Shown: positions 1-56,988 of the stretch, piece after piece | Layout of the letters: every line of letters begins with the position of its first letter | Numbering within the stretch: position 1 is the first letter of the stretch | Assembly (NCBI GenBank): GCA_000306725.1 | Contig: CP003083.1 | Location: forward strand, 620,001 to 684,000 | Direction: 5' to 3' | DNA from: Methanolobus psychrophilus R15 | Lineage (GTDB): Archaea > Halobacteriota > Methanosarcinia > Methanosarcinales > Methanosarcinaceae | Length of the DNA: 64,000 bases | The notes under the pieces: model-generated | Databases searched by the model: none | Told to the model about the DNA's origin: nothing | Seen by the model: the letters and a program-made list of their open reading frames with translations, nothing else | Made by a program: the position numbers and the translations under genes

Positions 1-3000
1 TCATGTACCAATTTGATTTGTTTTCATCTTCAACAATATCGATTGGTTGTACCTCTACGCTTTCAACCATATCGGGTTCTTCTACAACAGTCCATTCATC
101 GCCTGCAATGGAGAATATAGAAAATCCGGAAGTCTGTGCGACGAAATAGAAGAACTCTTCATCTTCATCCAGTTGTTCTGTTGGTAATCTTTCCCAACCA
201 CCATTATTCAATCTCTCCATTCTAATGGATTCCGGAATAATATTGTTCTCTTCTACCCATTTTTTATCGACTTTAAAATAGATGAAAATATTATCTGCAT
301 TATGACTGCCAATAGTTCCAGTTCTACCAACATTTATCTCCATGAATTTATAAACCGGAGCATTATTTGAAGGAGTTCCTTCTGGAACGTTGTTCAAAAG
401 GTTGATTCTGTTTTCAACTATTCCTGCATTGGTCTTAGAATCGAAACTTATCAGAGTTACAGGTATATCATCAGCAGTTACATGATATTCAACCTTACTT
501 CCAACACCAACGTTCTGCCTGTTACTGAAAAGTGTATCTATGTTTTCAGATGGAGATTTTGAATCTGCAATATTCTGTTGTCTTGAACCGCCTGAAGATT
601 TTGGCACATCATCATCTTCAACTACTGTATCTGAATCATATCGAATTTGTAAATATGGATATCCATTGTTGATTTCAGGATGAATGTTCCATATATTGGT
701 GAAATTCCAACCTATAAAAGTAGATTGTTGTTTCATTTGTGAAGTTGTTCTACCTTCTCCACCAGCACTTTCTGATTGGAAAGATGTTTCAGTATTCCAG
801 TACGATTCGGTTATTGTTCCTGAATAGTAAAATCCAATTAGTCCTCCTACATTTGAATCACCTAAATCACCTATAACTTCACCAATTGAATAAGAATTTG
901 TAATGGAACTCTGCTCACTAATCACACCAACAAGTCCGCCTACACTCTCATTTCCAGTTACATTGGAAGTTGAATATGAATTGATTATTGTTGTACCACT
1001 TGCTTCGACTCCAACTAAGCCACCTACATCATCAATACCAATTACATCCCCTGATGAAAAAGATTCAGCAATTGTTCCATTATTCGCTCCTATAAGTACA
1101 TCTGTGCCTACAATTCCAACTAAGCCACCCACACCAGCAACACCAATTACATCCCCTGATGAAAAAGATTCAGCAATTGTTCCAATATTAAAACCAACAA
1201 GTCCACCTATGCCTAAACCTCCTTCAACAGATGCACTTGATATTGAATTTTCAATAATTCCTCCATTATAACCACTAAGTCCTCCAATAAGAAGACCACC
1301 ATCTACATGTCCAGAAGAATGTGAATTGATAATTGTACCTAAGTTTAAGCCCGCCAGAATACCAACACCTCCTAAACCACCAGTTACATTACCATGAACT
1401 CTGACATTTTTTATGACAGAATTTGGACCAAGATATCCAAATAATCCTACTCCTACTATATCTTCACTTGGTACATTTATGAATAAATCATTCACATGAT
1501 ATTCATTGCCATCAAAAGAACCACTGAACATGTCTTCCATGTCCTCCATCTCTTCCCCGAAATAAGCATTCGCTATAGGTATAAATCCTGCACCATCATT
1601 CCAGTTAACAGTTTCAGATGCATCAATATCATTTATCAGAATGTAATGTGCTGATAAATCCAAATTCATGGCTTGTAATTGGCATATTGTAGATACTTCA
1701 TATGGATTGTTTTCACTACCATCACCATTTTCAAATATAGGATACGATGTAGTTAAATTCTGCAAATATGGATAACCATTGTTTACAGCACAATGAATTT
1801 CCCATTTATGTGTGAAATCCCAATCTATAAAAGTAGATTGTTGTTTCATTTGTGAAGTTGTTCTACCTTCTCCACCAGCACTTTCTGATTGAGAAGATGT
1901 TTCACTATCCCAGTACGATTGGGTTATTGTTCCTAAATAGTTTAATCCAAGAAGTCCGCCTACCCAATTAGTTCCATTCACTTCACCTATGGAATATGAA
2001 TCTGTGATAGTCCCCCCACCACTACTTTTATCATCAGCATTATAACCAACAAGGCCACCTACGTAGTTTTCTCCGGTTACATCACCTGTGGAATGTGAGT
2101 TTGTGATAGTACCACAATAATTTATACCAACAAGGCCACCTACATTATCGCCAGTTCCGGTCACATTACTCGTGGAATATGAATTTTCAATAGTACCTGT
2201 ATTTAGACCAACAAGGCCACCTACATCATCACCAGTTCCGGTCACATCACCTGTGGAATATGAATCTGTAATAGCACCATCATTATAACCAACAAGGCCA
2301 CCTACGTAGTTTTCTCCGGTTACATCACCTGTGGAATGTGAATCTGTGATAGTCCCCCCATAATTTTCACCAACAAGGCCACCTACATTATCGCCTCCGG
2401 TAATATTAATATCAACCAACCCAACATCCTTGATTGTTGCACCAGCATCAGTGCGTCCAAAGAGACCTACATAATCCTCAGTGGTTCTGTCAATGAACAG
2501 TCCGGTTATCGTATAGTTTTGACCATCGAAAGTACCAGTGAATTTTACACTATTGTTCCCTATTGGCTTGAATCCTTTGAAAATTCCGGATTCACTATTC
2601 CAATTTTCAGTTTCAGATGCATCAATATTGTCACCTGTCACATTACCTGTGGAGTATGAGTTTTCAATAGTACCTAGATTATGACCAACAAGGCCACCGA
2701 CACTAATATCACCGGTCACATTACCTGTGGAATATGAGTTTTCAATAGTACCTGTATTTTCACCAACAAGGCCACCTACATTATTTTCTCCGGTAATATT
2801 AATATCAACCAACCCAACATCCTTGATTGTTGCACCAGCATCAGTGCGTCCAAAGAGACCTACATAATCCTCAGTGGTTCTGTCAATGAACAGTCCGGTT
2901 ATCGTATAGTTTTGACCATCGAAAGTACCAGTGAATTTTACACTATTGTTCCCTATTGGCTTGAATCCTTTGAAAATTCCGGATTCACTATTCCAATTTT

Positions 3001-3247
3001 CAGTTTCAGATGCATCAATATCATTTATCAGAGTGTAATTTGCAGATAAATCGTGTGCCACTGCTTGTAATTGAGAAATATTTGATATCTGATATGGATT
3101 ATCAGAGCTACCATCCCCTTCAAATACAGGTGTTGCAGAAGCAGTTGATATGAGAAGAGTTAATGAGAGGAGAAGAATTAAAGGATATTTAACATACGAT
3201 ACATGCAATGGTTTTTTGTTTATAAATTGATTTATATTGAGCCTCAT
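1..3247 (-). CDS. GLUG-repeat surface protein with PGF-pre-PGF domain, 3' end outside window
   Basis: The minus-strand frame opens with ATG at 3247 and stays open for about 1082 codons to the left edge, so the C-terminus is missing. Residues ~20-38 form a hydrophobic signal peptide ending near STASA. The body carries many GLUG-type repeats (VGGLVG followed by TIENSYSTGNVTG) in two blocks, each introduced by an NPYQIS..LQA segment. The second and third blocks close with the usual YWN..GG.T..QM....F.GW module. Near the left edge the residues FFYFVAQTSGFSIFSI and KVDKKWVEENNI match the PGF-pre-PGF domain, as in the protease at 59730. Such proteins are exported and usually end in a membrane-spanning anchor, expected just beyond this window. 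Likely role is adhesion or cell-surface structure; the exact ligand is unknown. Confidence 0.85.
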   Translation of the reverse strand, partial: MRLNINQFINKKPLHVSYVKYPLILLLSLTLLISTASATPVFEGDGSSDNPYQISNISQLQAVAHDLSANYTLINDIDASETENWNSESGIFKGFKPIGNNSVKFTGTFDGQNYTITGLFIDRTTEDYVGLFGRTDAGATIKDVGLVDINITGENNVGGLVGENTGTIENSYSTGNVTGDISVGGLVGHNLGTIENSYSTGNVTGDNIDASETENWNSESGIFKGFKPIGNNSVKFTGTFDGQNYTITGLFIDRTTEDYVGLFGRTDAGATIKDVGLVDINITGGDNVGGLVGENYGGTITDSHSTGDVTGENYVGGLVGYNDGAITDSYSTGDVTGTGDDVGGLVGLNTGTIENSYSTSNVTGTGDNVGGLVGINYCGTITNSHSTGDVTGENYVGGLVGYNADDKSSGGGTITDSYSIGEVNGTNWVGGLLGLNYLGTITQSYWDSETSSQSESAGGEGRTTSQMKQQSTFIDWDFTHKWEIHCAVNNGYPYLQNLTTSYPIFENGDGSENNPYEVSTICQLQAMNLDLSAHYILINDIDASETVNWNDGAGFIPIANAYFGEEMEDMEDMFSGSFDGNEYHVNDLFINVPSEDIVGVGLFGYLGPNSVIKNVRVHGNVTGGLGGVGILAGLNLGTIINSHSSGHVDGGLLIGGLSGYNGGIIENSISSASVEGGLGIGGLVGFNIGTIAESFSSGDVIGVAGVGGLVGIVGTDVLIGANNGTIAESFSSGDVIGIDDVGGLVGVEASGTTIINSYSTSNVTGNESVGGLVGVISEQSSITNSYSIGEVIGDLGDSNVGGLIGFYYSGTITESYWNTETSFQSESAGGEGRTTSQMKQQSTFIGWNFTNIWNIHPEINNGYPYLQIRYDSDTVVEDDDVPKSSGGSRQQNIADSKSPSENIDTLFSNRQNVGVGSKVEYHVTADDIPVTLISFDSKTNAGIVENRINLLNNVPEGTPSNNAPVYKFMEINVGRTGTIGSHNADNIFIYFKVDKKWVEENNIIPESIRMERLNNGGWERLPTEQLDEDEEFFYFVAQTSGFSIFSIAGDEWTVVEEPDMVESVEVQPIDIVEDENKSNWYM
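2401..3021 (-). repeat. In-frame 393-bp tandem duplication inside the GLUG gene
   Basis: The stretch 2401-2628 reappears nearly unchanged at 2794-3021, an offset of 393 bases or 131 codons, so the reading frame is kept. The copies encode the DIDASETENWNSESGIF segment plus the following GLUG start. The flanking parts of the unit are similar but more diverged. Confidence 0.85.
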
Positions 3248-3295
3248 ATATTCAATATCAATATTCTAATGCTATTTATATATATAGATTCGTAA

Positions 3296-3550
3296 AAAAG
3301 TAAAATAATAATCAGAAACTTCGGTAAACTTGCTATATTTATCAACTTTTTCGTAAATATTGTATTTTCAATTATCTTATTTATAGAGATTACAACAATT
3401 ACATTAGTTTCAGTGCGTTCCATTATATTCTTTATAAGCGTTATACTGCTCCTAATACCTGTAGAACCTGCATTGTTAGGAACATTTTCCTATTCCTTCC
3501 ATGACTCTGATAATTCAGAAATTGTTGAACTTGGAATAGAATATGAATGA
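3296..3550 (+). pseudogene. Possible remnant of a small membrane protein
   Basis: A plus-strand frame between stops has 84 codons and no ATG; a GTG lies at 3413. The translation contains two hydrophobic stretches (around IIFFISVILLLIP and VNIVFSIILFIE) followed by a polar tail ending LGIEYE. This amino-acid pattern looks like the C-terminus of a membrane protein. It could be a truncated gene left upstream of the GLUG gene, or chance in AT-rich DNA. The rest of 3248-3634 is AT-rich spacer with the likely promoter of the GLUG gene (TATATATAG near 3280). Confidence 0.25.
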
Positions 3551-49187: not shown

Positions 49188-51098
49188 TCAAATACCCAAT
49201 GCCCTGCGCTTGTCCTCGATGTGTTCCATCATCATGTCAACAGCTTTCACGCTGTCCGTTTCCACGTTGAGGAGACCACCTGTTATGTCTTTGCAATCAT
49301 GGGTGAGCAGCTTCACAAGGTCAGGACCCCCTGTGACCGTCGGGACCGGGTTCACATGCGTGTGAAGTCCCAGGGCCAGGGCAAAGACCGCATCTATGGT
49401 AGCCTTCTGTTCCATATACTCAGGTGCTGTCGCCACCACAGGCAGGTCAGGGATCGCAACCCCGCCAAGACCCGCAGAAACCGCAGCAAGCAGGTCTGCC
49501 AGTCTTCCGGTATCGGTACATGTCCCGTAGCTCAGTACAGGTGGAACCCCCAGAGCCTCGCAGACGGACCGAAGCCCCGGACCTGCAATCTCTTTGGCTT
49601 CAGGACTGCAAAGTCCCCCCACCTGCATGGCACCGTTACCGCATCCCATAGAGAGCACAAGTACATCCCGTTTGATAAGTTCCTTTGCGATGGCTATGCT
49701 ATGGTTATCCTGTCCCGTATCCCTTAAAGTGGTGCAGGATACAAGGCCCGCTACCCCGCGCAGTGTTCCCGCCTTGATGGCATCCAGAAGCGGGTCAAGT
49801 TTCCCGCCAAGCGCATCCAGTATGCTCTCAGTGGAAAATCCCACGACAGCTTCACTGAGCGGCTGTCCTGTTATCGGCACTACGGTTGACCTTCGCTCCT
49901 TGAAATTGTCGATTCCCATCTGAAGCAGCTGTGCCGCCTGCTCACTCGCTTTTTCGGGTATGTACTCAATGCGGTCCGTGACCCCCTCAAAGGATATCAG
50001 ATCGCTTACCGGAATGAGTTTGAACCTGTACTTTTCCGCATACAGGGGATCTATAGGCATGGAACAGTTCATATCAGACACAAATACATCCACACAACCG
50101 CTTGCCATAACGGCTTCCTGCATTATCCAGTTCCCGGTAAAACCATAGAGCACATCATCCATATCCCATCTCTGGATCATTTCCTGTCCGGTCTCTATAT
50201 TTGCAATTATCCTGAGACCCTTTGCACCCACTCCTTTTGCCATTTCCTGCCACTCTGCCTGTCTTGCAAGCTGGACCATGGCAAATCCAAGGAAAGGCTC
50301 ATGGCCGTTGGGCAGTACGTTTACATAATCAGGATCCAGCACTCCCAGATCCACACGCATATTATGCGGCCTGGGTATCCCGAAGATCATGTCCTGACAG
50401 TATTCATTGACGATCTGGCTCTGGTATGCCATGGCGATTCCAAGTTTCATTGCCTTTAAGGCCAGGCTAACGTAATTCCCGTCCACGTTTGTCAGACAAG
50501 AGCTTGTGGCCCTTAATATCTCGGTGTGGATGCCACCTGGAAAGATACCAAGCTCTTTCCATAATTGCTGGCGCTCTTGCGGGGCAAGCAGTTCAACTAT
50601 CCTGCTCGGATGCCCGTATTCCCTGTTAAGATCTGCTTCCACAAAATCGCATAGCTTTAAAGCAACATCATTTGCCGGGCCGGAACTGTCAATCCCAAGC
50701 CTGCCCGCAAAGCTTCTCAGCTTTTCTTCTTCGACTATCTTAAAAGGGGTCTCGCCCTTAGCAGTGGCCCTCAGAGTTTTGATGGTTTGTGTAGTATGAT
50801 ACTGGTAAGTGGAAGCTCCCATGACATTGCGCAGAAGCATCATGCGCATCGCCATACCATCGGCTGTTATCCCGCACACTCCCCTCTTGTCCTTTGCCGC
50901 ATCGGCACGGCAGGGGCCGTTGGAGCAGAGGTCACAGCGCATCCCGCCCTGGCAGAAGCTGCATCTCCTGTCAGGGTTTCCGCCCATTCCCTGAGCTTCA
51001 TACCGGTCCCAGATATTTGTCATGCCGTCTTCTTTTATTCTCTTGTACGCTGTGCGCACTGACTTATGATACGATATCCTATTTTCTTCCACAAACAT
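49188..51098 (-). CDS. cooS: CooS-like Ni,Fe-CODH family protein with altered active-site ligand
   Basis: 636 residues, full length for the monofunctional CO dehydrogenase family. B-cluster cysteines C55, C58, C63 and C75 are present (CDLCSNGPC...GVCG). At the D-cluster, C46 is kept and a CSFC pair appears, but the second usual Cys is Arg54. For the C-cluster, H266 (NGHEP), C345 (MNCSMP), C455, C486 and C527 are kept. The position read as CCTGNE in standard enzymes is IETGQE here, so one ligand Cys is Glu302. The His tunnel after GAST is also reduced (YQYHTTQT). Related deviant CooS proteins, such as CooS-V of Carboxydothermus, hold an Fe-S-oxo cluster and do not oxidise CO. No cooF or nickel-insertion gene is adjacent. 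Confidence 0.88.
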   Translation of the reverse strand: MFVEENRISYHKSVRTAYKRIKEDGMTNIWDRYEAQGMGGNPDRRCSFCQGGMRCDLCSNGPCRADAAKDKRGVCGITADGMAMRMMLLRNVMGASTYQYHTTQTIKTLRATAKGETPFKIVEEEKLRSFAGRLGIDSSGPANDVALKLCDFVEADLNREYGHPSRIVELLAPQERQQLWKELGIFPGGIHTEILRATSSCLTNVDGNYVSLALKAMKLGIAMAYQSQIVNEYCQDMIFGIPRPHNMRVDLGVLDPDYVNVLPNGHEPFLGFAMVQLARQAEWQEMAKGVGAKGLRIIANIETGQEMIQRWDMDDVLYGFTGNWIMQEAVMASGCVDVFVSDMNCSMPIDPLYAEKYRFKLIPVSDLISFEGVTDRIEYIPEKASEQAAQLLQMGIDNFKERRSTVVPITGQPLSEAVVGFSTESILDALGGKLDPLLDAIKAGTLRGVAGLVSCTTLRDTGQDNHSIAIAKELIKRDVLVLSMGCGNGAMQVGGLCSPEAKEIAGPGLRSVCEALGVPPVLSYGTCTDTGRLADLLAAVSAGLGGVAIPDLPVVATAPEYMEQKATIDAVFALALGLHTHVNPVPTVTGGPDLVKLLTHDCKDITGGLLNVETDSVKAVDMMMEHIEDKRRALGI

Positions 51099-51816
51099 CC
51101 CTCAGTGAAAATATCCCATTCATTTGAAAATTGGGCTGGCAACTTAAATACCCATTGAGAGAATATAATCTGCATTCATCAGTGCAGATTAGGATCATGG
51201 GAAAGATTTCTAAAGAGGGTGTGGCAGAAATGCTTGTAAGATGTACAAATACTAATCAAAAGAGCACAAATACCGGGGCAGCCCACCGGACTGGCTCCGG
51301 GCAGTTTTCAACTTCGCTAAACCACTATCTCTCTTGCATGAGCAGGTAATCGTGGATTAGCCTGAGATGCGTTGCATTCCGTATAAGTGGCAGCCAGTAT
51401 CCTGTAATGGCCACAGTAGTCCCCTCCTCCTCCGGCAGTACACGTGAAGGCCGCACTGCTGGCGTACTCGCACTCGTGGTAGAATTTACACATCATTATA
51501 TCCCTCTGAATATGAGATAATATAAATTAATATATTTTTCCATATAATATTAATAATTACTGCTTGACTCAAGGGAGGATAATAACCTGAGCTGCTACAT
51601 TTGAAGTTGCATGAAAGGCTGCACCCTGCAGACAACAGTAACCAGCAAAAGTTATTCACTAAACGGTAAAAGGTTATTTAGTAAAGAAAGGATATACTCT
51701 ACTAATGCGCTTTTACCTTCCAGCCTCACATGAAAGACCTGTAAATGCTGTATCCCCATATAAAATGGGACTGAATATCTAATAAAGACTGCGGTTCATA
51801 ATGAATTTGCGGAGAA
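51099..51816. other. Intergenic region with one small Cys-rich gene
   Basis: Apart from the minus-strand gene at 51317-51496 no gene is supported. 51500-51815 holds AT-rich promoter sequence for the small gene (TATAATATAAATTAATATA near 51518) and for the kinase gene. Confidence 0.5.
51317..51496 (-). CDS. Small Cys-rich protein (59 aa)
   Basis: ATG 51496 with GAGGGA six bases upstream opens a 59-residue frame. The N-terminal half is MCKFYHECEYASSAAFTCT, then GGGGDYCGHYR, giving cysteines at 3, 9, 19, 28 and 41. The C-x5-C-x9-C-x8-C spacing suggests a small metal- or cluster-binding fold. Short Cys-rich proteins of this kind are frequent in Methanosarcinales. It is divergent from the kinase and downstream of nothing obvious. 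Function unknown. Confidence 0.6.
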   Translation of the reverse strand: MMCKFYHECEYASSAAFTCTAGGGGDYCGHYRILAATYTECNASQANPRLPAHAREIVV

Positions 51817-51822
51817 ATGCCA

Positions 51823-52749
51823 ATGAGAACGATTATTACCCTGACAATGAACCCTGCTATTGATAAGAGCACAAGCACTGAACATGTGATACCCGAGCAT
51901 AAGCTCTACTGCAAACCTGCTCAGTATGAGCCTGGTGGAGGTGGTGTCAATGTGTCCAGGGCCATAAAAAAACTGGGAGGCGAATCGCTGCTGGTATATC
52001 CATCAGGAGGCATGGCCGGACAGATGCTCAGTAACCTTCTGGAGCAGGAAGGAGTTAAACAGAAGGCCTTGCCCATTGAGGGAATGACCCGGGAGAACCT
52101 TATAGTGCTGGAGGGATCCACAGGGCAACAGTACCGTTTCGGGATGCCCGGTCCTCAGCTGCAGGCAGGTGAATGGGAGCGGTGCCTCCGCGAACTGTCC
52201 TCGGCCAGCCCGGCGCCGGATTACCTGATAGCCAGCGGGAGTCTTCCCATGGGTGTACCGTCAGACTTCTATGCCCGTGCGGCACGTGTCGGGAAGGACA
52301 TAGGTGCAAAGGTCATCGTTGACGCATCCGGTGAAGCACTTGAGAAGGCCCTGCAGGAAGGTGTTTATCTCATCAAGCCCAATATACGCGAATTCCAGAA
52401 CCTCGCAGGCCAGGATGTCATGGAGGAGCAGCAGATTCTGGACGCGGCCATGAAGATCATAAAAGATGGAATGTGCGAAGTAATAGTAATATCCCTCGGT
52501 GCGGCCGGCGCCCTCCTTGTCTCTGAAAATATGGTCGAGCGCATGGTCCCGCCCACAGTGCCCATTATCAGCAAAGTGGGAGCCGGCGACAGCATGGTCG
52601 CAGGTATCGTCCTGGGTCTGTCAACGGACAAGACACTTAGAGAGGCGGTCCTGTATGGACTGGCTGCCGGTTCTGCAGCTGTCATGACCCCGGGGACAGA
52701 ACTGTGCCGGAAAGAGGACACTGAACGCCTCTACGCAAAAATGATATAA
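51823..52749 (+). CDS. PfkB-family (phospho)fructokinase
   Basis: About 308 residues. ATG 51823 gives better spacing from GCGGAG than ATG 51817. It starts RTIITLTMNPAIDKST, then PGGGGVNVSRAIKKLG (substrate pocket). The second PfkB signature is GAGDSMVAGIVLG with the catalytic Asp near residue 256. NIREFQNL and VISLGAAGALL fit the E. coli PfkB/LacC branch, which phosphorylates fructose 6-phosphate or tagatose 6-phosphate with ATP. It sits 40 bases before the glycogen phosphorylase gene, indicating a shared role in glycogen breakdown and glycolysis. Confidence 0.82.
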   Translation: MRTIITLTMNPAIDKSTSTEHVIPEHKLYCKPAQYEPGGGGVNVSRAIKKLGGESLLVYPSGGMAGQMLSNLLEQEGVKQKALPIEGMTRENLIVLEGSTGQQYRFGMPGPQLQAGEWERCLRELSSASPAPDYLIASGSLPMGVPSDFYARAARVGKDIGAKVIVDASGEALEKALQEGVYLIKPNIREFQNLAGQDVMEEQQILDAAMKIIKDGMCEVIVISLGAAGALLVSENMVERMVPPTVPIISKVGAGDSMVAGIVLGLSTDKTLREAVLYGLAAGSAAVMTPGTELCRKEDTERLYAKMI

Positions 52750-52788
52750 CCGCCCAGCCACTTACAACAGCACGATCAGGAGACGAAA

Positions 52789-54501
52789 ATGCAGGAATTG
52801 CTCATTGAAAAACGTTCCGTCGCCTATTTCTCAATGGAGATAGGCATCGAAGAAAGGATACACACTTATAGCGGCGGCCTTGGAATACTCGCCGGCGATA
52901 CTATCCGCTCATCGGCCGACCTTAAAGTGCCCATGATAGCAGTCACTCTGCTTTACCGTAAAGGGTACTTCCGCCAGCGTCTTGGAGATGACGGATGGCA
53001 ACATGAAGAGCCTGCACCATGGAAGGTGGAGGATTTCATGCACGAGATGTCCGCGAGGGTCCAGGTGACCGTACATGGGAGAAACGTGCATTTGCGAGCC
53101 TGGAAATATGAGGTCAAAGGTATCACGGGCTTTAATGTGCCAATCATCTTCCTTGACGCGGACCTGCCGGAGAACTCACAGTGGGACCGGACGCTGACCC
53201 ATCACCTCTACGGCGGGGACAATTATTATCGTCTCTGCCAGGAGCTCATCCTCGGTGTCGGTGGTATCAGGATGCTCAGGGAGCTTGGTTACAGGAACAT
53301 CCAGAGTTTCCATATGAATGAAGGGCACGCCGCACTCCTTACCCTGGAATTACTTGACGAGGAAGCAAAAAAAGCCGGCAGGGATCGGCTTATAGAGAAC
53401 GACCACAAAGCTGTGCAGAGAAGATGCGTGTTCACGACCCATACTATCGTACCTGCCGGACATGACCAGTTTCCTCTGGAGATGGCACAGATGATCATCG
53501 GTCAAAGGGAGGATTTCTTTGCACTTGACGGAGTACTGCATAATGGTAATACCCTTAACATGACCCGTCTGGCCCTCAACCTGAGCCGCTATGTAAACGG
53601 TGTCGCCAAGAAGCATGGAGAAGCTTCCAGGCAACTGTTCGCCGGCTATTCCATCAACTCCATCACCAATGGCGTTCACGCTGCTACCTGGGTGTCAGAA
53701 CCGTTCAGGCAGCTGTTCGACCAGTATATCCCTATGTGGCAGCGGGATAATTTCAGTCTCCGCTATGCCCTCAACATCCCAAAGGATAAAGTATGGGATG
53801 CCCATCTGCAGGCCAAGAGAAAACTGATCGAATTTGTCAACGCGCAGACAGGCTCAGACCTGGATGAGGAAGTGCTGACCATCGGCTTTGCCAGAAGGGC
53901 TGCGACCTACAAGAGAGGCGACCTTTTGTTCCAGGATCTTGAGCGCCTTAAAAGTATATCCGCCCATACCGGGAAGTTCCAGGTCATCTATGCAGGTAAA
54001 GCACACCCTAAAGACCAGGGGGGCAAGGAACTCATCCAGCGTATCTTCCAGGCAAAGCAGGCACTGGCCAGTGAAGTAAAGGTGGTGTACCTTGAAGACT
54101 ACAACATGACCCTGGGGGCGATGATCACTGCAGGAGTTGACATCTGGCTGAACACACCCGAGCCTCCGATGGAAGCCTCCGGCACAAGCGGGATGAAAGC
54201 TGCTCTTAACGGCGTCCCCAACCTGAGCGTGCCGGACGGATGGTGGATAGAAGGGCATATCGAAGGGCTGACCGGCTGGTCTATCGGTAATGGTATCCCG
54301 GAAAATGCAGAGGATCGCAACCATTCAAAGGATGCGGAGTCACTCTACTACAAGATGGAAAATATAGTCATTCCCCTCTATTACCAGGATCGGGGGCGTT
54401 TCATCGATATGATGCGCTATTCCATCGCCATAAACGGTTCATTCTTCAATACCCACAGGATGATGCAGGAGTATGTGCTCAACGCCTACTTCTCCTGCTG
54501 A
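52789..54501 (+). CDS. glgP: Alpha-glucan (glycogen) phosphorylase, short archaeal type
   Basis: 570 residues, the compact GT35 form. Landmarks are [49 protein letters not shown] and [13 protein letters not shown]. Phosphate/PLP-region signatures are [11 protein letters not shown] and [14 protein letters not shown], and [14 protein letters not shown] carries the PLP-binding Lys near residue 470. It releases glucose 1-phosphate from storage glucan. GGAGACG precedes ATG 52789. It is probably cotranscribed with the PfkB kinase. Confidence 0.92.
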
Positions 54502-54725
54502 GCGGGACTTCGTCCAGGAATTTCGGATAAGATCCACTACAAATCGATGTGAGATTTGACCAGGCACTAAAGCCATCATATGCAGATAGATATATAAGTA
54601 GAAATTCTACTCTAGAATAAAGGGATTAGTTTGGAAAATCAAACTAAGTCCATTTGTGTGTATGATCTTAGTTATTAGAAAGGACAAAGATCAATCACGC
54701 TCTACATATCGGGGGTAAGTAGCGT

Positions 54726-55496
54726 ATGATAAATAATCTATTCGATCTTACTGGCAAGGTTGCAATTGTAACCGGTGCCTCTAGCGGATTGGGAGTACAG
54801 TTTGCTAAAGCATTAGCTAATGCCGGAGCAAATATTACTATTGCAGCAAGAAGAGTTGAGAAGTTAGAAGCACTTAAGAGAGAACTGGAAGAAATTGGCG
54901 TAAAGTGTCTCGCAGTAAAGTGCGATGTTTTGATAGAGGCTGATGTCATAAATGTGGTCGAGCGCACAGTTGAAGAATTTGGGAAACTGGACATTCTGGT
55001 AAATAACGCTGGAACGTCTTCTTTTGCACCGGCGGAAGATATGACCGGAGAAGAATGGGATAAAGTGCTTGATACAAATCTCAGAGGTGTGTTCTTCTTC
55101 GCAAAACACGCTGCCAGAAAGATGAAAGAACGCAACTATGGAAGAATAATCAACATAGCTTCAATGTACGGTGTAATTGGAAATACACAATATCCGGTCT
55201 CTTCTTATCATGCGTCAAAAGGAGGAGAGGTGAACCTTACAAGAGCACTGGCAGGCGAGTGGGCACAATACGGAATTACGGTGAATGCTATAGGGCCCGG
55301 ATTCTTTGAGTCTGAGATGACGAAAGATCTCATCTCCGACGATGAGTTTCAGAATTTCATTCGATCAAGATGTCCTATGAAACGGATTGGCAGACCAGGT
55401 GAGATGGATGGTTTGCTTGTATACCTTGCATCTGACAATTCCAGTTATTTGACGGGCGAGCATATCTGTGTTGATGGTGGATGGGCTGCTGTATGA
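54726..55496 (+). CDS. Short-chain dehydrogenase/reductase
   Basis: 256 residues. Classical SDR: TGASSGLG for NAD(P), NNAG, catalytic Ser in NIASMYGVIG, YHASKGGEVNLTRAL with the Tyr/Lys pair, and the C-terminal GEHICVDGGWA. The layout is near gluconate 5-dehydrogenase/FabG-like enzymes; the substrate cannot be fixed. A TATA-like GATATATAAGTA near 54588-54599 and GGGGGTAAG before ATG 54726 support single-gene expression. Confidence 0.85.
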   Translation: MINNLFDLTGKVAIVTGASSGLGVQFAKALANAGANITIAARRVEKLEALKRELEEIGVKCLAVKCDVLIEADVINVVERTVEEFGKLDILVNNAGTSSFAPAEDMTGEEWDKVLDTNLRGVFFFAKHAARKMKERNYGRIINIASMYGVIGNTQYPVSSYHASKGGEVNLTRALAGEWAQYGITVNAIGPGFFESEMTKDLISDDEFQNFIRSRCPMKRIGRPGEMDGLLVYLASDNSSYLTGEHICVDGGWAAV

Positions 55497-55813: not shown

Positions 55814-55960
55814 GTGAACTACCACCCTATGAATAGGGTGGCTTCCTGCTTCATCATCGAATCCAACGACTCAATTCCACAGGCTTGAACTGTAGTTCCT
55901 ACAGCACGATTTAGAATATTGATAGCTGCATTGTGGTCACGGTCAAGAACTAATCCACAG
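55814..55960 (-). ncRNA. Candidate omega RNA (right-end guide RNA scaffold)
   Basis: By analogy with other IS605 elements the 3' part of tnpB and the right end form the scaffold. The terminal hairpin at 55822-55841 overlaps the tnpB stop. The guide would be the host DNA read just beyond, starting about CAGTCTACAATGAG on the minus strand. The 5' boundary given is approximate. Confidence 0.4.
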
Positions 55961-56988
55961 TATGGACAATTATGTACCCTTACTGCAAGTGGTTTCTCGA
56001 CTTTTTGACCACATTTGCTACAAAGTTGTGATGTATTATATGGATTGACTAATTCTACAAACTTACCAGCTTCTTCCGCTTTGTATTTTGTAATCTGAAT
56101 TAGATTACTCCATGATGCATCATGTATTGATTTTGAAAGTCTTGAATTTTTAACCATATTCATTACATTCAGGTCTTCAAAAGCTATGAAATCGTAAGCA
56201 TTAATGAGTTCCCTACTTATTTTATGGTTAAAATCATTTCTTTGATTGCGTATTTTTCGATGCAATCTGTTTACCTTGTCACATTGTTTTTTCCAATTAT
56301 TAGAAAACTTCCTTTTTTTGCTAAGATTACGTTGTTGTTTCTTTAATTCATCCTCTGTATTGCGATAATAATTTGGAGAATCTATTTGAGTACCATCACT
56401 TAATGTAACCAGAGAATTAAGTCCTACATCAATACCAACAAAAGTAACAGGTTCTACAGGTGTTGTATTATTCTCAATGACTACAGAGAATGTAATATAC
56501 CATTGTTTACCATCTCTGCGGATAGTACACGTCTTGATTTTACCTTCAATTTCTCTATGTAGAACTATCTTAATTTCTCCAATCTTTGATAACTTCAACT
56601 TTTTTCCAGAAATGCTAAAACCAGATTGTGGATAGGTAAAATTATTATATCTGTTCTTACCTTTGAAACGAGGATAACCTGCTTTGGCACCTCCATTCTT
56701 ACATCGTCTAAAAAAGTTATCAAAGGATTTGCCTAATCTCCTGATTACATCCTGTTTAACCTGAGAATGAACATCGATATCAAATTCAAGATATTGAACC
56801 TGATATAATTGTTCCATTGTTGATAATCCCTGATTACATCGGTCGTATGCGTTTCTACGGTCTGCAAGAAATTCGTTATAGATATATCTACAAACATCAA
56901 GTGTCTTATTCAAAGTCACTTCCTGTTGTTTTGCAGGATATAATCTAAACTTATATGATTTCTGCATTAGATACCTATAGGTCAGCAA
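55819..56988 (-). CDS. tnpB: TnpB (RNA-guided nuclease of IS605 family)
   Basis: 389 residues. The N-terminal part begins QKSYKFRLYPAKQQEVTLNK, as usual for OrfB. The RuvC-like core has GIDVGLNSLVTLSDG (first Asp), FEDLNVMNM (Glu) and DRDHNAAINI (last Asp). The zinc ribbon CSKCG...CPYCG lies between them. All catalytic residues are present. ATG near 56967 (MQKSYKF) is a likely alternative start. TnpB proteins cut DNA guided by an RNA made from the right end of the element. Its stop lies beside the right-end hairpin. Confidence 0.93.
   Translation of the reverse strand: MLTYRYLMQKSYKFRLYPAKQQEVTLNKTLDVCRYIYNEFLADRRNAYDRCNQGLSTMEQLYQVQYLEFDIDVHSQVKQDVIRRLGKSFDNFFRRCKNGGAKAGYPRFKGKNRYNNFTYPQSGFSISGKKLKLSKIGEIKIVLHREIEGKIKTCTIRRDGKQWYITFSVVIENNTTPVEPVTFVGIDVGLNSLVTLSDGTQIDSPNYYRNTEDELKKQQRNLSKKRKFSNNWKKQCDKVNRLHRKIRNQRNDFNHKISRELINAYDFIAFEDLNVMNMVKNSRLSKSIHDASWSNLIQITKYKAEEAGKFVELVNPYNTSQLCSKCGQKVEKPLAVRVHNCPYCGLVLDRDHNAAINILNRAVGTTVQACGIESLDSMMKQEATLFIGW

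Follow-up and report, generated by a model that had tools for sequence, protein, structure and literature searches.

The closest described relative of the protein reported here is CooS-V of Carboxydothermus hydrogenoformans (PDB 7B7Q, 7B7T, 7B95, 7B97, 7B9A), which belongs to structural group D-1 of the clade D Ni-CODHs and for which structures at 1.2-1.35 angstrom exist (PMC9311411). Group D-1, with its Glu, type III D-cluster, Tyr and likeness to HCP, was defined in 2019 (PMC6344411), and these features were demonstrated structurally in 2022 (PMC9311411). CooS-V contains no Ni, binds a [4Fe-3S-nO] cluster and holds a [2Fe-2S] cluster at its type III site; it has no CO or CO2 activity, reduces NH2OH slowly and gave no detectable NO reduction, and access of substrate is suggested to be confined to its reduced state (PMC9311411). 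Compared with HCP, its clusters have potentials lower by about 300 mV and its NH2OH turnover efficiency is lower by about two orders of magnitude, and the C295E variant of CODH-II is Ni-deficient and incapable of CO oxidation (PMC9311411).

Identification of the CooS-V gene

The window, meaning the whole 64,000-nucleotide stretch of Methanolobus psychrophilus R15 analyzed here (source genome 3.07 Mb, single contig), carries at 49188-51098, on the minus strand, a cooS gene that belongs to structural group D-1. Read as an ATG open reading frame it encodes 636 amino acids and is intact, without a stop or frameshift. The true start is probably the GTG at 51092, giving 634 amino acids, since conservation among congeners begins there and GAGGG stands just before this codon. 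A promoter-like block with BRE/TATA-like character (TCTCAATGGGTATTTAAGT, minus strand, 51142-51160) is kept upstream of the cooS-V genes of congeners. Comparison with congeners gave a dN/dS of 0.045-0.06, and the gene is under strong selection.

With TIGR01702 (CO_DH_cata; curated cut-off 478 bits) the window protein scored 730.7 bits and with Pfam Prismane 467 bits, and it matched the HCP model NF003658 weakly (22.7 bits; cut-off 367), so the sequence is not that of an HCP. The best PDB match by sequence was CooS-V (7b7q, 681 bits), the next being a CODH at 399. An AlphaFold2 model built without cofactor from an alignment of 52 homologues reached a pLDDT of 87.7 and a pTM of 0.91, superseding an alignment-free prediction (pLDDT 35), and its top fold matches in the PDB were 7b9a (TM 0.96) and 7b7q (TM 0.95), at 49% identity, with all catalytic CODHs ranked lower. 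A quick maximum-likelihood tree of D-1 proteins and nine canonical CODHs (long branches; known D-2 to D-4 proteins absent) placed the 53 D-1 proteins, including CooS-V, in one clade with 100% support, apart from the canonical enzymes. Membership of clade D beyond group D-1 is suggested by the residues described below and by kinship with CooS-V. Within the D-1 clade, CooS-V and nine Ser54 proteins from other genomes of the window's order were separated from 43 Arg54-type proteins, including that of the window, and 27 positions differ in a fixed or nearly fixed manner between the two subgroups (e.g. Ala299, Trp283, Trp311, Phe272).

We consider it near certain that the window protein is of the CooS-V type, structural group D-1. 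The preliminary description had placed it with deviant enzymes like CooS-V, which bind an Fe-S-oxo cluster and do not turn over CO, and this agrees with the best sequence match, the best predicted fold, the common clade and every diagnostic residue. It differs from CooS-V in its archaeal host, in having Arg54 in place of Ser46 and in the approximately 27 near-fixed subgroup differences. Non-CO chemistry is established only for the Carboxydothermus protein, which is about 50% identical to that of the window (PMC9311411).

Cluster residues

Residues were mapped by alignment with 7b7q and checked against the published CooS-V numbering; all coordinates below are on the minus strand. The [4Fe-4S] B-cluster ligands are Cys55, Cys58, Cys63 and Cys75 (50874-50936). 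Five of the six C-cluster ligands had been described as kept, and all five were found: His266 at the hybrid-cluster site (50301-50303; CooS-V His259), Cys345 within Asn344-Cys345 (50064-50069; CooS-V Asn337-Cys338), Cys455 (49734-49736; CooS-V Cys449), Cys486 (49641-49643; CooS-V Cys480) and Cys527 (49518-49520; CooS-V Cys521, the persulfide-forming Cys). At the sixth, the reported change of CCTGNE to IETGQE places Glu302 (50193-50195) at the ligand position, where it aligns unambiguously with Cys295 of CODH-II and Glu295 of CooS-V. No other register supplies a Cys ligand, as the protein has no Cys between Cys234 and Cys345.

Tyr98 (50805-50807) stands where the catalytic His is expected, a group D-1 signature (PMC6344411); His101 and Lys565 are retained, and Tyr98/Lys565 stands in place of the catalytic His/Lys pair. 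Glu563-Gln564-Lys565 (49404-49412) supplies the HCP-type cluster Glu (CooS-V Glu556) together with the general-acid Lys (PMC6344411). The D-cluster had been reported as altered, with Arg54 for a Cys and an added CSFC pair. Arg54 does stand where a type II cluster has its second Cys, and Cys46-Ser-Phe-Cys49 (50952-50963) aligns with Cys38/Cys41 of CooS-V, ligands of the subunit-bridging [2Fe-2S] type III D-cluster (PMC9311411). Because this CxxC forms a known and normal type III D-cluster, the site is rightly called altered and would wrongly be called defective.

All cluster residues of the window protein are present and invariant in the 52 homologues, which come from many archaeal and bacterial phyla. 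The nine canonical CODHs compared (6t7j and 6b6v plus seven of related archaea) instead show, in window numbering, Cys at position 302, His at position 98 and Gln at position 344, and position 563 is not Glu in any of them. This contrast puts the Glu302 register beyond doubt. The fold, the B-cluster and five C-cluster ligands are shared with catalytic CooS-type Ni,Fe-CODHs (clades E and F; CODH-II and the N. vulgaris CODH, the latter also with a type III D-cluster), but the Cys295 ligand, the catalytic His and the Asn344 and Glu563 sites set the window protein apart, and the catalytic ligand set of five Cys and one His is broken by Glu302. What is found instead are the marks of group D-1 (Glu302, a type III CxxC with no Cys next to the B-cluster, Tyr98, Lys565, Glu563), and likeness to CooS-V extends to all cluster ligands including the Cys-to-Glu change, the type III D-cluster, the Tyr, the HCP-type Glu and the fold. 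The protein also carries the complete hybrid-cluster residue set of His, Glu, four Cys and Glu (PMC6344411, PMC9311411), identical to that of HCP classes I-III. Judged by these residues it is predicted to work like HCP though not a member of that family, since it is CooS-type by sequence (TIGR01702) and HCP is a separate gene of the same genome.

Gene surroundings in Methanolobus

The preliminary description had noted the lack of cooF, cooC and ACS genes, and none was present among the nine nearest larger open reading frames of the window; such adjacency is common but not obligatory for catalytic Ni,Fe-CODHs. The nine encode pfkB, a carbohydrate phosphorylase, an SDR, an IS605 OrfB, a PspC-type protein, a pilin/flagellin-like protein and unknown proteins. 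This context without links to C1 metabolism resembles that of CooS-V and is unlike that of catalytic CODHs. Functional partner genes were sought in the window's own neighborhood and none was found, the copy being solitary.

Most other Methanolobus copies lie among DinB, a histidine kinase, a copper ATPase and Ftr (names partly by sequence reading). These were considered as partners and judged bystanders; neighbors vary between Methanolobus subclades. A comparison of 49188-55496 of the window with loci L042-L052 showed pfkB and the phosphorylase in the window's subclade and the DinB, kinase, copper ATPase and Ftr set in most Methanolobus, and these differing surroundings show that cooS-V has moved within the genus. 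The upstream regions of the Methanolobus cooS-V and hcp genes have no evident operator in common, cooS-V having only the core-promoter-like block. Upstream of hcp (L183-L192, L063) we observed a block of strong conservation in which GTATC/GATATC words recur, a possible operator that was not found upstream of cooS-V.

Two other features of the window were recorded, both on the minus strand. The IS605 OrfB/TnpB-type protein at 55819-56988 has a Cas12f1-like TNB domain, with no TnpA among the open reading frames read, and a 738-amino-acid protein at 43591-45807 matches archaeal flagellin (PF01917) in its C-terminal part, an odd fusion.

Neighbors shared with HCP

We surveyed 94 CooS-V loci for recurring neighbors, using raw counts to which relatives contribute partly by shared inheritance. 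A two-[4Fe-4S] ferredoxin of 230-320 amino acids was near CooS-V in 23 of the 94 loci and in at least three arrangements; ten loci have it upstream, and in WOR-3 and Lokiarchaeota it follows CooS-V. Also recurrent were cupins of two families (in 10 and 7 loci) and an Rrf2 regulator (7 loci). The Lokiarchaeota neighbors include a rubredoxin-reductase-like protein, a flavodiiron protein, superoxide reductase and glutaredoxin-like proteins, and two loci from different families (L055 and L060) share a same-strand run of rubrerythrin, flavodiiron protein, FTR and CooS-V. FTR thus adjoins CooS-V in these two loci, and it is near CooS-V in a third (L098).

The HCP gene of the window's own genome (C1:2826482-2828227) is followed 56 bp downstream by a cupin and then by the FTR catalytic subunit. 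This triad (C1:2826482-2829023; L063:6483-9024) is conserved through Methanolobus (23 loci) and is a candidate archaeal HCP accessory set. Just upstream of the intact HCP lies a decayed N-terminal HCP fragment (C1:2826168-2826344), at a site where one relative (G016) has a tandem HCP pair.

A search for the HCP-operon cupin in 60 relatives gave 41 good matches, 30 of which follow HCP on its own strand at a distance of 28-87 bp (Methanosarcinaceae, own genome included), while two lie upstream of CooS-V, at 80 and 149 bp; in Methanosarcina this cupin is directly upstream of CooS-V. It occurs as a single copy in 12 of 32 other D-1 hosts. Six of these, all Actinomycetota, have it directly upstream of CooS-V and two, both Lokiarchaeota, have it near CooS-V; in Methanococcoides it adjoins HCP, and in the remaining three hosts it lies elsewhere. 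By comparison of coordinates, the two-[4Fe-4S] protein was also located beside or close to HCP in the Halobacteriota genomes G079, G097, G224 and G237, and twice in G330. Taken together, these data indicate that three families, the cupin, FTR and the two-[4Fe-4S] protein, accompany CooS-V and HCP alike.

In Desulfovibrio desulfuricans exposed to NO a cupin-hcp pair is induced (log2 4.4 and 3.17), as is a cooS gene (log2 2.01) (PMC5701242), though the cupin family and CODH group may differ from those considered here. A zinc-binding dehydrogenase, together with HypA and HypB, has been linked to group D-1 (PMC6344411), and a 2026 survey reported no clear neighborhood pattern for clade D but a high co-occurrence with HCP (PMC13056359). 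Relative to the open-access literature, the neighbors shared with HCP and the genomes with D-1 as sole family member (see below) appear to be new. The shared neighbors in relatives give a partial answer to the question of the physiological context, which the preliminary description had left open.

Proposed function

We propose that the window protein is probably a nickel-free, low-potential hybrid-cluster reductase on a CODH scaffold, acting against nitrosative or oxidative stress; its cofactor, electron path, substrate and role in the host organism are inferred. In a homodimer, electrons would enter at the bridging [2Fe-2S] D-cluster (Cys46/Cys49) and pass via the [4Fe-4S] B-cluster to a [4Fe-3S-nO] cluster bound by His266, Glu302, Cys345, Cys455, Cys486, Cys527 and Glu563. 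The reduced cluster would open a channel, and a small N-oxide or reactive oxygen species might be reduced there, giving protection in parallel to HCP and not as part of CO metabolism. NH2OH and NO need not be the substrate, since CooS-V reduces the former very slowly and reduction of the latter was undetected (PMC9311411). The solitary window copy, its varying neighbors within Methanolobus, the lack of an evident operator in common with hcp, the distinctness of the Arg54-type subgroup from the characterized Ser46-type CooS-V and the M. acetivorans genetics cited below count against this proposal, and neighbor genes as such bear on function indirectly.

The low potentials and poor NH2OH efficiency of CooS-V (PMC9311411), together with the many D-1 hosts from lineages of anoxic sediments, are also consistent with a hybrid-cluster reductase for a different low-potential substrate, neither NO, NH2OH nor a reactive oxygen species. 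We regard this as unlikely, given that the recurrent neighbors are stress genes (flavodiiron protein, superoxide reductase, rubrerythrin, HCP-type cupin and FTR). Less probable still is a role in sensing gas or redox state, or in regulation, with no physiological turnover, which would accord with the reversible restructuring of the CooS-V cluster with redox state (PMC9311411), with the solitary gene and with the transcription regulators adjoining some relatives (PMC13056359); the fully conserved electron-transfer clusters and the two-[4Fe-4S] ferredoxin near many relatives are a better fit to turnover.

Genuine CO dehydrogenase activity, even if slow, at a Ni cluster ligated by Glu would explain the CODH fold and the five retained ligands, and according to the account in PMC6344411 a part for D-1 in CO oxidation was hinted at by M. 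acetivorans genetics (Rother 2007). This seems very improbable in view of CooS-V itself, which has neither Ni nor CO activity, of the CODH-II C295E variant, which is Ni-deficient and cannot oxidize CO (PMC9311411), of the HCP-type Glu563, Asn344 and Tyr98, all present, and of some hosts that have no catalytic CODH. A decaying, non-functional CODH copy, which the altered ligands might suggest at first sight, is ruled out by a dN/dS of about 0.05, the lack of stops and frameshifts and the invariance of the ligands across phyla.

Under the favored reading as a hybrid-cluster reductase, the neighbors shared with HCP and the hosts without another CODH give CooS-V a concrete, testable role, and Methanosarcina, where a cupin adjoins CooS-V, is a tractable genus in which to test it. 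Group D-1 genes in genomes should not be counted as evidence of CO metabolism.

Distribution and co-occurrence

Among named genomes, those of Methanolobus come nearest by the window protein (83-95% identity). Proteins with 73-79% identity were found in Lokiarchaeota and other Asgard archaea, Thermoplasmata, Bathyarchaeota, ANME-1, Methanofastidiosum, Chloroflexota, Actinomycetota, WOR-3 and Desulfobacterota, an identity across phyla too high for vertical descent, and repeated transfer therefore seems likely.

The window's own genome contains CooS-V, one HCP with the decayed HCP fragment, and CdhA, with no catalytic CooS. Within the family, no clear link between the presence or absence of HCP and of CooS-V emerged: 20 genomes have both, 12 HCP only, 2 CooS-V only and 3 neither, and one of the genomes counted as having neither (G029) carries a Ser-type CooS-V copy. 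Among 32 host genomes, the D-1 protein was the sole prismane-family match (E<=1e-30) in nine, three of these being WOR-3 records labelled chromosome. A statement by Jeoung et al. on this point thus does not apply to the subgroup, with the caveat that metagenome assemblies make up the majority. We tentatively suggest that the Arg54-type subgroup might form a widely transferred stress module of anaerobes, in which CooS-V receives electrons from its own two-[4Fe-4S] ferredoxin and is aided by the HCP-operon cupin, and that it replaces HCP where this is missing and does not require CO metabolism in its hosts; we hold this with clearly less confidence than the proposed function itself.

Pyrrolysine is used by hosts of the family to which one further genome (G030) belongs. 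The CooS-V gene of this genome (L020, reverse strand, 1501-3405) carries an in-frame TAG codon in place of Leu88, which may be read through given this use of pyrrolysine.
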